Positions 13,068 through 34,926 of a DNA stretch of 64,000 nucleotides are shown one piece after another (the first letter of the stretch is position 1; each line of letters opens with the position of its first letter). The position numbers and the translations under genes were made by a program. This stretch comes from Aeropyrum camini SY1 = JCM 12091 (GTDB lineage: Archaea > Thermoproteota > Thermoprotei_A > Sulfolobales > Acidilobaceae), in assembly GCF_000591035.1 (NCBI RefSeq), contig NC_022521.1, positions 1,302,001 through 1,366,000 of the forward strand, in the 5' to 3' direction. The notes under the pieces were generated by a model, which saw only the letters and a program-made list of their open reading frames with translations, was not told the origin of the DNA and searched no databases.

Positions 13068-15770
13068 CTACAGTTTCTTCTCAATCGCCTCGGCCAGCAG
13101 CTTCTCCAGCTCGGCCGCGGAAAGCCTTCCCTCCACTCTCATGCTTGCATAGCTACCTCTCCCCCCTCCGCGGCCTCTAACCCTCTCTAAAACCGATTTT
13201 ACCACCGCACCCAGGTCGACTTTCTCCGCGGCCGTAGAGCCCGCAGCCATCTCGACCTGAGTGTAGCCTTCACCCTCTATAACGAGAGCTGCTATGAGGT
13301 CCTCATGCCTTGAGGTCAGCTTCCTAAGTATATCCTGGACAGTCCTTCTGTCCCTCTCGATCGACTCCACGGCAAGTATCTTAACCCCCTGGACCTCTTT
13401 GGCTCTGGATGCATACGCCTCTTCAACCATCTTAACCCAATACTCCCTATACCTCTTGAGGTCCGCCCTAGCCTCCTCGAGGCTGGCTAAGAGCCCCCTA
13501 ACTCTAGCCTCCTCCTGCCCCCGGGATGCTTTTACGGCGTCTCCAATGCGGGCTAGCCTCTCCTCCAGCTCCCGCGCGTACATAGCAACCCTATCACCAG
13601 CCACATACTCTAGCCTGACGACGCCGTCCTGTATTCTAGAGTGGGATACGATCTTGAAACCTCCTATCTCCCCAGTGTTTCTGACGTGCGTTCCAAAACA
13701 GGCCTCTACATCCCAGTCCTCCACGAAAACCAGTCTAAGCTTCTTCTCCATGGGAACCCCGCCCTGGTATATCGTGAACCCGTACCTCTCCTCCGCGACG
13801 TTCTTATCCACAAGCTCCTCCCAAACTCTGCGCCTCTCCCTTATAACCTGGTTCACAACGTTCTCCAGCTTCTCTATGTCAACCCGTGTCAGAGGTTTGT
13901 GGTGTGTTATATCGAGCCTACCCTTCTCCTCGGTCTTCTCTGCCCCAGCCTGCCATGCATGGCGGCCTAATACCCTCCTAGCCGCGGCTATAAGAACATG
14001 GGTTACCGTGTGATGCCTCATTATGGCGTAGCGCCTCTCCCAGTCAATCTCCATCTCAACCTCGTCACCCGGCTCAGCGGAAATATCCCTCTCGGCGACA
14101 TGGACTATAGCATCTCCCACCTTCTGGACGTCTACTATCCTGTACTGCTGGTTGTTAACTCTCACTAGCCCTGTATCATGTATCTGCCCCCCACCGGTGG
14201 GGTAGAAAATCGTGGAGTCTGTTACGAGGTAGCGGCCCCTGACGCCGAGAACCCTCGCCTTCCACGACCTAGCGTAGGGGTCCTCGTGGAACACCCTTCT
14301 CGTCTCGCCAAACCCGCTAGCCCACTCCACCACATCCCTAGGGAGTTTCGCCTCCTCGAAGCCATACCCCCTCACCTTCTCAGGACCTCTGTGCCTCGCC
14401 GCCACTAGCGAGTAGAAGTTGTGGGGAACCTCAACCACTACCCCCCGGCTTGACGCTATCTCGGCTGCTATCTCGGGCGGTATGCCCATGCTGTCGTACA
14501 GTCTTACTAGGTCGTCTACACCCAGCTTCCTCTTCCTCTTTATCTCCCTCTCCACCACGCTCCTGGCCCTCCTCAGGACCTCGCGGAACCTCTCCTCCTC
14601 AAGGGACACAGCGTCGAGTATATAGTCCAGGTTCTCTCTAAGCTGTGGGAAGTCTCTCATCCAGAACTTAACCTGCCTCTCTACAAGGTCGACCAGCGGG
14701 GCCTCGGCGTTCAGTAGTGATAGCTGTCTTAGCGCCCTCCTAACGACAAGCCTGGCTAAATAGCCCTCGCCGGAGTTGCTCGGCACTATGCCGTCTCCAA
14801 GCATGAGTGCTATTGTCTTGGTGTGGTCCAGCACGCTATAGAGCCTCGCCTCCCTGGTGAGGATAGTCTTAACAGCGTCTGTGTCAAGGCCTGTGGCGGA
14901 GGCCACCCTATGGTAGTAGCTTCTCAGGCTCTCGGGATCCTCAGGATCTAGGAAGCCTGCAACCCGAAATGCAGCCCACATAACGCTGTCATCGGGCTTG
15001 TCGACGCCGAGCATGCTCCTAAAGTCGTCAACAAGCCTGCCGTATATGGCATGGAAGGCAGTCGGAGTCTTCTGGGTGAACCACGCTAGCCTCTCAACCC
15101 CATAACCCGTGTCAACTATCTTTAGCGGTATCTCCTCATACCTCCCGTCCACAACCCTATACTTCATGAACACCAGCGTGGCTAGCTCGAGCCCTCCGAC
15201 AGCCACCTCGAAGCTCGGCCCCGCGTTACCGCCGCCCTCCCACCATGACTCCTTAAACACTATAAGCTCCGGAGGTATGCCGAGTACTTGTGTGAAGAAC
15301 TCAAAGGCGAGCCTCACCGTATCCTCCTTCCAGTAAACCTGCTTATCGGGGTAGTTGAATGCGTGGTGTGCAGCCATCTCGAAGGAGGTCAGGTGCCGCC
15401 CTATAGTTATCCCAACATTGTCGATATCCTCAAGCCTTATGCTAGGCTGGCTTATGACCAGGGGGTTCGCGGGAGGGGGCACCAGGCCGCTTGTAACGTG
15501 GGGCTGGAACACCACAATGCTGGCTATAGTTAGGTAGAGGTCCTCCCTCCACCTAGCAACCACGGGCCTTGGGGGAACCCTCGTGTGGCCATGCTTCTCG
15601 AAGAAGCTAAGGAAAGCCTCACGAGCCTCCCCCACACTCATGCCAGGTACAGACTTGACCCTGTCGAACCAGTATTCAACGCAGGGCGCGTCCTGCGGCT
15701 CGCTAAACTCCGGATTTAGAGTCCAGAACGCCTCTCTACACCTAGAGCCCTCCTTCCTAAGGAAGCCCAT
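13068..15770 (-). CDS. alaS: Alanyl-tRNA synthetase (archaeal type)
   Basis: This enzyme charges tRNA-Ala with alanine. It is about 900 residues and contains the class II catalytic domain with long blocks identical in kind to Sulfolobus AlaRS (for example PSIRLEDIDNVGIT and WWEGGGNAGP). The editing domain has zinc-type motifs HHTVTH (about residue 580) and CFGTH (about 690), and a C-terminal oligomerisation domain follows. The listed start is the first ATG, but the conserved archaeal N-terminus continues upstream in frame, as described in the entry at 15816. It closes the secE-spt5-L11-L1-L10-L12 cluster, 230 bp behind the L12 gene, with its own AT-rich promoter region. Confidence 0.96.
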   Translation of the reverse strand: MGFLRKEGSRCREAFWTLNPEFSEPQDAPCVEYWFDRVKSVPGMSVGEAREAFLSFFEKHGHTRVPPRPVVARWREDLYLTIASIVVFQPHVTSGLVPPPANPLVISQPSIRLEDIDNVGITIGRHLTSFEMAAHHAFNYPDKQVYWKEDTVRLAFEFFTQVLGIPPELIVFKESWWEGGGNAGPSFEVAVGGLELATLVFMKYRVVDGRYEEIPLKIVDTGYGVERLAWFTQKTPTAFHAIYGRLVDDFRSMLGVDKPDDSVMWAAFRVAGFLDPEDPESLRSYYHRVASATGLDTDAVKTILTREARLYSVLDHTKTIALMLGDGIVPSNSGEGYLARLVVRRALRQLSLLNAEAPLVDLVERQVKFWMRDFPQLRENLDYILDAVSLEEERFREVLRRARSVVEREIKRKRKLGVDDLVRLYDSMGIPPEIAAEIASSRGVVVEVPHNFYSLVAARHRGPEKVRGYGFEEAKLPRDVVEWASGFGETRRVFHEDPYARSWKARVLGVRGRYLVTDSTIFYPTGGGQIHDTGLVRVNNQQYRIVDVQKVGDAIVHVAERDISAEPGDEVEMEIDWERRYAIMRHHTVTHVLIAAARRVLGRHAWQAGAEKTEEKGRLDITHHKPLTRVDIEKLENVVNQVIRERRRVWEELVDKNVAEERYGFTIYQGGVPMEKKLRLVFVEDWDVEACFGTHVRNTGEIGGFKIVSHSRIQDGVVRLEYVAGDRVAMYARELEERLARIGDAVKASRGQEEARVRGLLASLEEARADLKRYREYWVKMVEEAYASRAKEVQGVKILAVESIERDRRTVQDILRKLTSRHEDLIAALVIEGEGYTQVEMAAGSTAAEKVDLGAVVKSVLERVRGRGGGRGSYASMRVEGRLSAAELEKLLAEAIEKKL

Positions 15771-15815
15771 TTCCCTAAAGAACTCTAGCTGATACTCTGA
15801 AGGGTCTACACTAAC

Positions 15816-15831
15816 CAGGCCTCTGCACCCC
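15816..15831 (-). promoter_or_regulatory. alaS: Ribosome binding site and probable CTG start of alaS
   Basis: Upstream of the first ATG (15770) the alaS frame stays open and encodes VSVDPSEYQLEFFRE, which matches the N-terminus of archaeal AlaRS (Sulfolobus has EEEYRLNFF at this place). No ATG, GTG or TTG exists in this extension. The only near-cognate codon placed correctly is CTG at 15818-15816, seven bases behind GGGGTG (15831-15826). This would give a 916-residue enzyme. Confidence 0.6.
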
Positions 15832-16002
15832 TTGAATCATAAGAACGTAGTGCGAGAGGGCTAAATTTGTCTTAATTATCAGCCGAACATGGATCGCAAC
15901 GTTGGACTAGCCAAAACATGGGAGAGCTGGGGGGAAAAGCTGTGCCAAGGGGCTTTGGATGGGGAGTGGTGGATTCGGCTGTCAAGCGTGTTGCCGGTTT
16001 CC

Positions 16003-33393: not shown

Positions 33394-33542
33394 CTGGAAT
33401 ATTTTCTTTGTTTAAAACGTAAATCTCAAAAACTCTTTCCAGGCGGACTATATTTTAGGCCAGGATATTTCTACTCCTTCCATGCCACCCGTTCTACTCG
33501 GGGAAACAGATTATCCCCTCCAGGCTTTAACTGGAAGACACC

Positions 33543-33558
33543 GGGGTGGTTTAGCCTG
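33543..33558 (+). promoter_or_regulatory. gatD: Ribosome binding site and possible CTG start of gatD
   Basis: GGGGTGG (33543-33549) lies six bases upstream of CTG 33556, which is in frame with gatD and adds 14 residues (LAEASSGYYGYRGV). The nearest canonical start, GTG 33598, has GGGGTG only two bases away, which is too close for a normal ribosome binding site. The added Y-x-G pattern resembles the N-terminus of some GatD proteins. There is no ATG, GTG or TTG in the extension. Confidence 0.4.
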
Positions 33559-33597
33559 GCTGAAGCTTCTTCAGGCTACTACGGTTACAGGGGTGTT

Positions 33598-34926
33598 GTG
33601 GCCAGGCTCCTCTCGAAGGCTGGGGCTAAGCCTGGCGATATAGTTGAGGTTAGAAGGGGCGACGGATCCGTTTTCAAGGGCGTTCTTATGCCTAAGCACG
33701 AGACTTCTCATCCGGACACCGTCGTTATCAAGCTAGATAACGGGTATAATATAGGCGTTCTTGTCGGAGAGGGTGATGATATTGTTGTTAAGGGCAGCTT
33801 GAAGCCAGGGACGCCGGGCGCTCCCGTGCCGCTTCTGGAAGAGGCCATCAAGCCCCCCGGGGAGAAGGTCTTCATAATTGGTGCTGGCGGCACAATAGCT
33901 AGCCGTGTAGACTATGAGACGGGCGCTGTCAAACCTTACCTAGACGCCTCCGAGCTTGCATCCACTATACCGGAGCTCCAGAGGTACGCTTCTATCGAGG
34001 CCGAGCAGCTATTTTCAATACTAAGCGAGGATATGAAGCCGAGGATGTGGGAGGCCATAGTGGATAAGGCTGCAAGGGTTCTGGAGGCGGGTTACGAGGG
34101 CGTTGTAGTAGCTCACGGCACCGACACCATGGCGTTCACAGCCTCAGCCCTCTCCTTCGCATTCCACAGGGGCCTGCCGAGGCCGGTTATCCTGACAGGC
34201 AGCCAGAGGAGCAGCGACAGGCCAAGCAGCGACGCGGCCTTCAACCTCACAGCCTCCGTGCTGGCGGCGTCTCGGGCGCCTTTCGCCGAGGTGGCTGTTG
34301 TAATGCATGGTGAGACCGGGGATACTTATGCTCTCGCACATAGGGGTGTGAGGGTTAAGAAGATGCATTCTAGCAGGAGAGACGCCTTCCAGAGCGTGAA
34401 CGACAGGCCGCTAGCTAGGATATACCCGTTTGAAGGTAGGGTTGAGATGCTGCGGGGCGACTATAGGAGGAGGGGCGAGTCCGACCTCCAGGCTGAGAAT
34501 GGGTTTGAAGAGAGGGTGGCGCTGGTGAAGCACTTCCCCGGTTTGATAGGGGAGGTCCTGGACGCACTTCTGGACAGGGGTTTCAGGGGTATAGTAGTTG
34601 AGGGAACGGGCTTTGGCCACGTCAGCAGCGACGCGGTGAAGGTGTTGGAGAGGGCTAGGGACGAGGGGGTGCCTGTGGTTGTCACGACCCAGACGATATT
34701 CGGCAGGGTAAACTTGAACGTGTACAGCACTGGCAGGAAGATGCTTGCCGCCGGCGCCATACCAGCGGGCGATATGACGAGCGAGGCGGCCTATGCTAAG
34801 CTCTCCTGGATACTGGCTAGAACTCAGGACCTTAGTGAGGTTAGGGAGCTTTTTCACAGGAACCTCGCGGGGGAGCTAAGCGAGAGACACATACTAAGGC
34901 TATACCGCCATGTTGGGGGTGTGTAG
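33598..34926 (+). CDS. gatD: Glu-tRNA(Gln) amidotransferase subunit D
   Basis: This is the glutaminase-like (L-asparaginase fold) subunit of GatDE, which turns Glu-tRNA-Gln into Gln-tRNA-Gln in archaea. It is 442 residues from GTG. The N-terminal SH3-like domain (GDIVEVRRGDG, LDNGYNIGV) is followed by the asparaginase domain with GAGGTIASRVDYETGA (about 96-111), HGTDTM (about 168-173) and GSQRSSDRPSSDA. All catalytic Thr, Asp and Lys positions look intact. It is followed by gatE with a 2-nt gap. An alternative upstream CTG start is given at 33543-33558. Confidence 0.96.
   Translation: MARLLSKAGAKPGDIVEVRRGDGSVFKGVLMPKHETSHPDTVVIKLDNGYNIGVLVGEGDDIVVKGSLKPGTPGAPVPLLEEAIKPPGEKVFIIGAGGTIASRVDYETGAVKPYLDASELASTIPELQRYASIEAEQLFSILSEDMKPRMWEAIVDKAARVLEAGYEGVVVAHGTDTMAFTASALSFAFHRGLPRPVILTGSQRSSDRPSSDAAFNLTASVLAASRAPFAEVAVVMHGETGDTYALAHRGVRVKKMHSSRRDAFQSVNDRPLARIYPFEGRVEMLRGDYRRRGESDLQAENGFEERVALVKHFPGLIGEVLDALLDRGFRGIVVEGTGFGHVSSDAVKVLERARDEGVPVVVTTQTIFGRVNLNVYSTGRKMLAAGAIPAGDMTSEAAYAKLSWILARTQDLSEVRELFHRNLAGELSERHILRLYRHVGGV

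Follow-up and report, generated by a model that had tools for sequence, protein, structure and literature searches.

The alanyl-tRNA synthetase gene (alaS) in the window, a stretch of 64,000 nucleotides of the Aeropyrum camini genome (1,595,994 bases in a single contig), raises the question of where translation of an essential gene begins if its reading frame holds no ATG, GTG or TTG codon ahead of the conserved N-terminus of the protein. The first-pass annotation of this DNA had proposed a CTG codon as the start.

The reading frame of alaS and its leader

Counted from the CTG at 15816..15818, alaS lies at 13068..15818 of the minus strand and comprises 916 codons plus the stop codon. Its reading frame is bounded upstream by an in-frame TGA (15837..15839), and the first in-frame ATG is at 15768..15770; from this ATG back to the TGA the frame is open for 22 codons. 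None of the codons ATG, GTG and TTG occurs in the alaS frame between TGA 15839-15837 and ATG 15770, which bears out what had been noted for this region, the coordinates being exact on the minus strand. Read on that strand, the leader consists of TGA (15839-15837), TTC AAG GGG TGC AGA GGC and CTG (15818-15816), and the codons between CTG 15818 and ATG 15770 are GTT AGT GTA GAC CCT TCA GAG TAT CAG CTA GAG TTC TTT AGG GAA. The hexamer GGGGTG, a putative ribosome binding site (15826..15831, minus strand), stands 7 nt 5' of the CTG, also in agreement with the first-pass annotation. No Rfam family matched the segment 15700-16050 at E values up to 1, thus there is no known leader RNA at alaS.

Judged from its conservation, the stretch upstream of ATG 15770, which encodes the segment SVDPSEYQLEFFR, codes for the conserved N-terminus of AlaRS. 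In a comparison with relatives, 54 of 60 genomes were matched, and the column counts given here refer to 30 loci among the matches listed, that of A. camini included. The motif [ED][YF]...FF was found upstream of the ATG in 29 of these 30 loci, and a looser form of it in all 30, as against a methionine at the ATG column in 8 of the 30. The family profile TIGR03683 (full-length archaeal AlaRS) covers residues 7-910 of the 916 and profile positions 2-899 of 902 with a score of 1195.6 bits, above the curated cut-off of 744.7; its position 2 aligns with residue 7 of the CTG-started protein, which is ten residues ahead of the ATG. The earlier recognition of an archaeal AlaRS N-terminus (EYQLEFF) in frame upstream of the ATG was therefore correct, and by this profile the A. 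camini protein is a full-length member of the archaeal family in which the start codon alone is unusual. Of the solved chains 3wqy, 2ztg and 2zze, all of which we take to be archaeal AlaRS, the first two align from query residue 5 and the third from residue 12, the ATG being residue 17. Between the CTG and the ATG, the protein shares 11 of 15 residues with its counterpart in the sister genome (G004, taken here to be A. pernix K1), and the nucleotide differences at codon positions 1, 2 and 3 number 3, 2 and 5, respectively.

These observations have to be weighed against translation from ATG 15770, which would leave the 16 upstream codons untranslated. This ATG has AGGG a short way upstream, and it is present in A. 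camini, in G004 and in the other matched genomes of the genus (G002, G003 and G005). However, an AlaRS started there would be without the N-terminal part covered by TIGR03683 and by the solved chains, the conserved motif in its looser form lies upstream of the ATG in every locus listed, and, while methionine at the ATG column is restricted to the 8 loci mentioned, a canonical start was found at or near the CTG column in 28 of the 30 (see below). Initiation at ATG 15770 is considered very improbable; most likely, this ATG is an internal methionine codon.

Another match to the class II Ala tRNA synthetase family, a short one (profile positions 473-552), lies elsewhere in the genome, at G000:C1:554495-554737, and is perhaps a free-standing editing protein.

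The start codon of alaS in related genomes

In G004 (1,669,696 bases) the leader of alaS reads TGA TTC AAG GGG TGT GGA AGA CTG GTC GAG GTA GAC. The TGA at equal distance, the AAGGGGTG ribosome binding site, the spacing and the CTG are all as in A. camini, and likewise no ATG, GTG or TTG was found between the TGA and the ATG. As far as the neighboring bases can tell, the agreement in the CTG is more than a lack of time for divergence, because four of the seven bases between the ribosome binding site and the CTG differ between the two species and the leader farther upstream has diverged.

The sister genome also bears on two readings that involve the upstream ATG at 15840. With one base changed near the GGGG run, the alaS frame would come into register with this ATG, so that a sequencing error or missing base, against which the first-pass annotation had cautioned, might conceal a canonical start. 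G004 was sequenced independently, and its frame, stop, ribosome binding site and CTG have the same layout, with no ATG at the equivalent of 15840; we regard such an error as excluded, the residual probability being negligible. Alternatively, the ribosome could start at ATG 15840 and shift into the alaS frame afterwards, since in A. camini this ATG opens a 9-codon frame (15840-15811, minus strand, MIQGVQRPG) that overlaps the alaS CTG. In G004, however, the equivalent position is occupied by TTTGATTC, which contains no ATG, and the TAG ending the frame in A. camini is absent, which leaves this route scarcely conceivable as well.

With these alternatives set aside, the CTG start can be viewed against the wider set of relatives. 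Among the 30 loci listed, the codon at the alaS CTG column is TTG in five, GTG in four, ATG in three, CTG in two and some other codon in 16, i.e. a canonical start stands exactly at the column in 12 of the 30. If the range is widened to codons -5 to +3 relative to the CTG, an ATG, GTG or TTG is present in 28 of the 30 loci listed, the two exceptions being A. camini and G004. An alignment with close relatives had been suggested, to see whether they carry ATG at this position. Within the genus the codon is TTG at exactly the CTG position in G002 and G003 and CTG in G004, and G005 has a GTG at -2 and a TTG at +1 relative to the column; ATG was found in the three loci mentioned. The conservation in G004, the canonical starts near the codon in all 28 other loci listed and the spacing of the ribosome binding site strongly support the proposed start, and alaS very probably begins with CTG 15818, as in the sister species.

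Further genes with CTG at the predicted start

Aligned stretches of the two genomes were searched for other starts of this kind. The first sample consisted of 464 kb of A. camini, including the window, and 480 kb of G004; 1575 reciprocal hits, 946 of them coding-like, were reduced to 434 ortholog pairs once overlaps had been removed. A scan for columns with CTG in one genome and a canonical codon in the other yielded what were regarded as largely internal codons; it was replaced by a start caller that scores each aligned codon by the match to a ribosome binding site and by the onset of coding-like substitution. The weights of the ribosome binding site were trained on ATG starts, and the caller has no start-codon preference. 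For the 277 pairs whose best site had a ribosome binding site in both species, the most frequent top sites were TTG/TTG (57), GTG/GTG (43) and ATG/ATG (38), followed by two mixed canonical types (7 each), CTG/CTG and GTG/TTG (6 each), GAG/GAG and others (5), with many rarer types after them. The caller does recover real starts, with a noise of about one codon.

A strong case was defined as a pair whose best site lay upstream of every canonical column and outscored each of them by more than 12 log units, this margin having been set after the list was seen. Nine of the 434 pairs passed the margin, and three of them (A0|+|381261, A0|-|159974 and A0|-|318833) were removed because a canonical codon lay upstream of the best site. 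The remaining six were five CTG/CTG pairs, namely alaS, gatD, an agmatinase-like gene, a DUF2139 gene and orc1/cdc6, and one TGT/TGC pair in a ferredoxin-type fragment. Given that CTG makes up 2.3% of identical codon pairs, five of six corresponds to P ~4e-8, a value to be read with the post hoc choice of the margin in mind. At lower margins CTG accounted for five of 9 cases (margin 9), five of 14 (margin 6) and five of 23 (margin 4). In the five genes of both species GGTG is located 6-8 nt upstream of the CTG in 10 of 10 sequences, and at exactly 7 nt in seven of them.

A further 200 kb per genome, taken from elsewhere, served as the second sample and gave 751 reciprocal hits, 443 coding-like hits and 189 pairs. 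Of these 189 pairs, none had its best site upstream of the canonical columns at a margin above 12; the highest value was 11.9 and did not belong to a CTG, and one pair with a margin of 16.0 was dropped for its upstream canonical codon. CTG/CTG was absent from the fourteen commonest top pairs of this sample. About two CTG cases would be expected among 189 pairs at the rate of the first sample, and the chance of finding none is about 0.1. Codons other than CTG were each represented by a single case, if the first sample is taken above a margin of 9 and the second above 5. Overall, CTG starts were called in 5 of 623 ortholog pairs of the sampled stretches, a rate that is uncertain.

The TGT/TGC site in the ferredoxin-type fragment was not counted as a start, the fragment appearing frameshifted. 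An open frame of 94 codons encoding a ferredoxin part lies on the minus strand at about 194277-194558 of G000:C1 (within L079), has 38 codons free of ATG, GTG and TTG, and shows 97% identity between A. camini and G004. It presumably belongs to a LutB/LUD-like protein and looks like a frameshift common to both species, either programmed or decayed.

The second gene of the window with a predicted CTG start is gatD (33556..34926, plus strand; TIGR02153), encoding subunit D of the Glu-tRNA(Gln) amidotransferase, with the CTG at 33556-33558 and a putative ribosome binding site GGGGTG at 33543..33548 of the same strand. CTG is found in both A. camini and G004, with GGTG 7 and 8 nt upstream, respectively, and GGAGGTG in place of the hexamer in G004. 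In A. camini the in-frame stop lies 55 codons upstream, and the frame holds no ATG, GTG or TTG from there to codon +14; in G004 none occurs from the stop at -12 to codon +19. A canonical codon exactly at the CTG column is absent from all four remaining genomes of the genus; G005 has CTG at the column and TTG at +1. The column is canonical in distant relatives only, by ungapped extension (ATG in G043, TTG in G038). The upstream part of the gatD frame (33394-33555, plus strand) is open for 54 codons without ATG, GTG or TTG; it is most likely untranslated, because the stop in G004 sits 12 codons upstream of gatD.

For the other three genes, canonical codons at the CTG column were found in relatives: TTG in G013 and ATG in G011 for the agmatinase-like gene, GTG in G005 for the DUF2139 gene, and TTG in G005 and ATG in G012 for orc1. 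Only alaS, gatD and DUF2139 are without a nearby alternative start in both species, because the agmatinase-like gene has a GTG at -3 in A. camini, which is missing in G004, and orc1 has a GTG at -5 in A. camini only and a TTG at +4 in G004 only. Taken with this reservation, the four further genes gatD, agmatinase-like, DUF2139 and orc1/cdc6 seem to start with CTG like alaS.

A solved Cdc6 chain, 2v1u, is identical to the Orc1/Cdc6 protein of G004 (L174) over the aligned part and begins at a leucine, residue 13, which is 12 codons downstream of the predicted CTG. The beginning of this chain is a construct or annotation start and is uninformative on the native N-terminus of Orc1/Cdc6.

CTG as a probable start codon in Aeropyrum

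Rare CUG starts are known in bacteria and eukaryotes. Aeropyrum would resemble these systems in that initiation at CUG is confined to a minority of genes, but it differs in that the CTG is common to two archaeal species and is found in essential genes. No report on CTG starts in Aeropyrum was found in a literature search to which most of the subscription literature was beyond reach, hence this is no proof of novelty, and the accessible part of a review of archaeal initiation (PMC7531240) does not mention CUG. According to the accessible parts of PMC2848648, the ribosome binding motif of A. pernix is GGTG. The N-terminal work on A. pernix by Yamazaki et al. 2006, as quoted in the accessible part of PMC5911459, gave 52% TTG, 28% ATG and 20% GTG; these percentages leave no room for CTG and are a point against CTG starts. 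TTG starts of A. pernix and the CTG starts described here have in common the genus, the GGTG-type ribosome binding site and a codon whose first base alone fails to match the initiator anticodon. In contrast to TTG, the commonest start with 52%, CTG is absent from the list as quoted and was called in the 5 of 623 pairs only.

The comparison of the two genomes suggests that Aeropyrum uses CTG as a fourth, minor start codon, and the CTG starts are probably derived from TTG. At alaS, the tail of the 16S rRNA most likely pairs with the GGGGTG located 7 nt before the CTG, which would bring the CUG into the P site. There the usual methionyl initiator tRNA would pair with CUG through UG only, as with UUG; the ribosome would start at the CTG, and the first residue of AlaRS would be methionine. 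On this assumption the N-terminus is predicted to be VSVDPSEYQLEFFR or MVSVDPSEYQLEFFR in A. camini and VEVDPAEYK or MVEVDPAEYK in G004. In the simplest history, a TTG start would have become CTG by one T-to-C transition in the ancestor of both species. We infer that CTG is a tolerated descendant of TTG, read as methionine by the usual initiator tRNA, because a system that mostly uses UUG already tolerates that the first base of the codon mismatches the initiator anticodon, and CUG requires no more than this; initiation with leucine is a possible alternative.

The first-pass annotation had suggested that the CTG could limit expression on purpose; as a weak start, it would be retained to hold the synthesis of AlaRS down. 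It is consistent with this that each of the five genes has CTG in both species, and that the top list of the start caller contained no mixed pairs of CTG and a canonical codon among the 277 pairs with a ribosome binding site in both. But five genes carry little power, and the five are functionally unrelated. The ribosome binding site looks strong rather than weak, GGTG being spaced by 7 nt from the CTG in seven of the ten sequences, relatives carry canonical starts at the CTG position, and the likely ancestral codon, TTG, is one transition away and is the commonest start reported for A. pernix. The notion of a purposeful limit is not supported by this combination of unrelated functions, probable TTG ancestry and strong-looking ribosome binding sites, and we consider it unlikely. 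On the sequence data of the two species, it is highly probable that alaS is translated from CTG 15818. CTG would then be a fourth, minor start codon of the genus, for which the data indicate no particular role in regulation.

It appears likely, though with less confidence, that start-codon recognition in this genus has become relaxed at the first base, so far that all four NTG codons serve, with TTG as the main and CTG as a standing fourth start, the latter kept through the species split in the essential genes alaS, gatD and orc1, and that gene finders restricted to ATG, GTG and TTG misplace or lose such starts. If this is true, the starts of AlaRS, GatD and Orc1 would be misplaced by any tool of this kind, for example Prodigal, which by its own account, in the accessible part of PMC2848648, allows only these three codons. 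Archaeal initiation would then tolerate CUG in essential genes with an ordinary Shine-Dalgarno leader, and first-base discrimination (by aIF1, aIF2 and the initiator tRNA) would become directly testable in a genus dominated by TTG starts.
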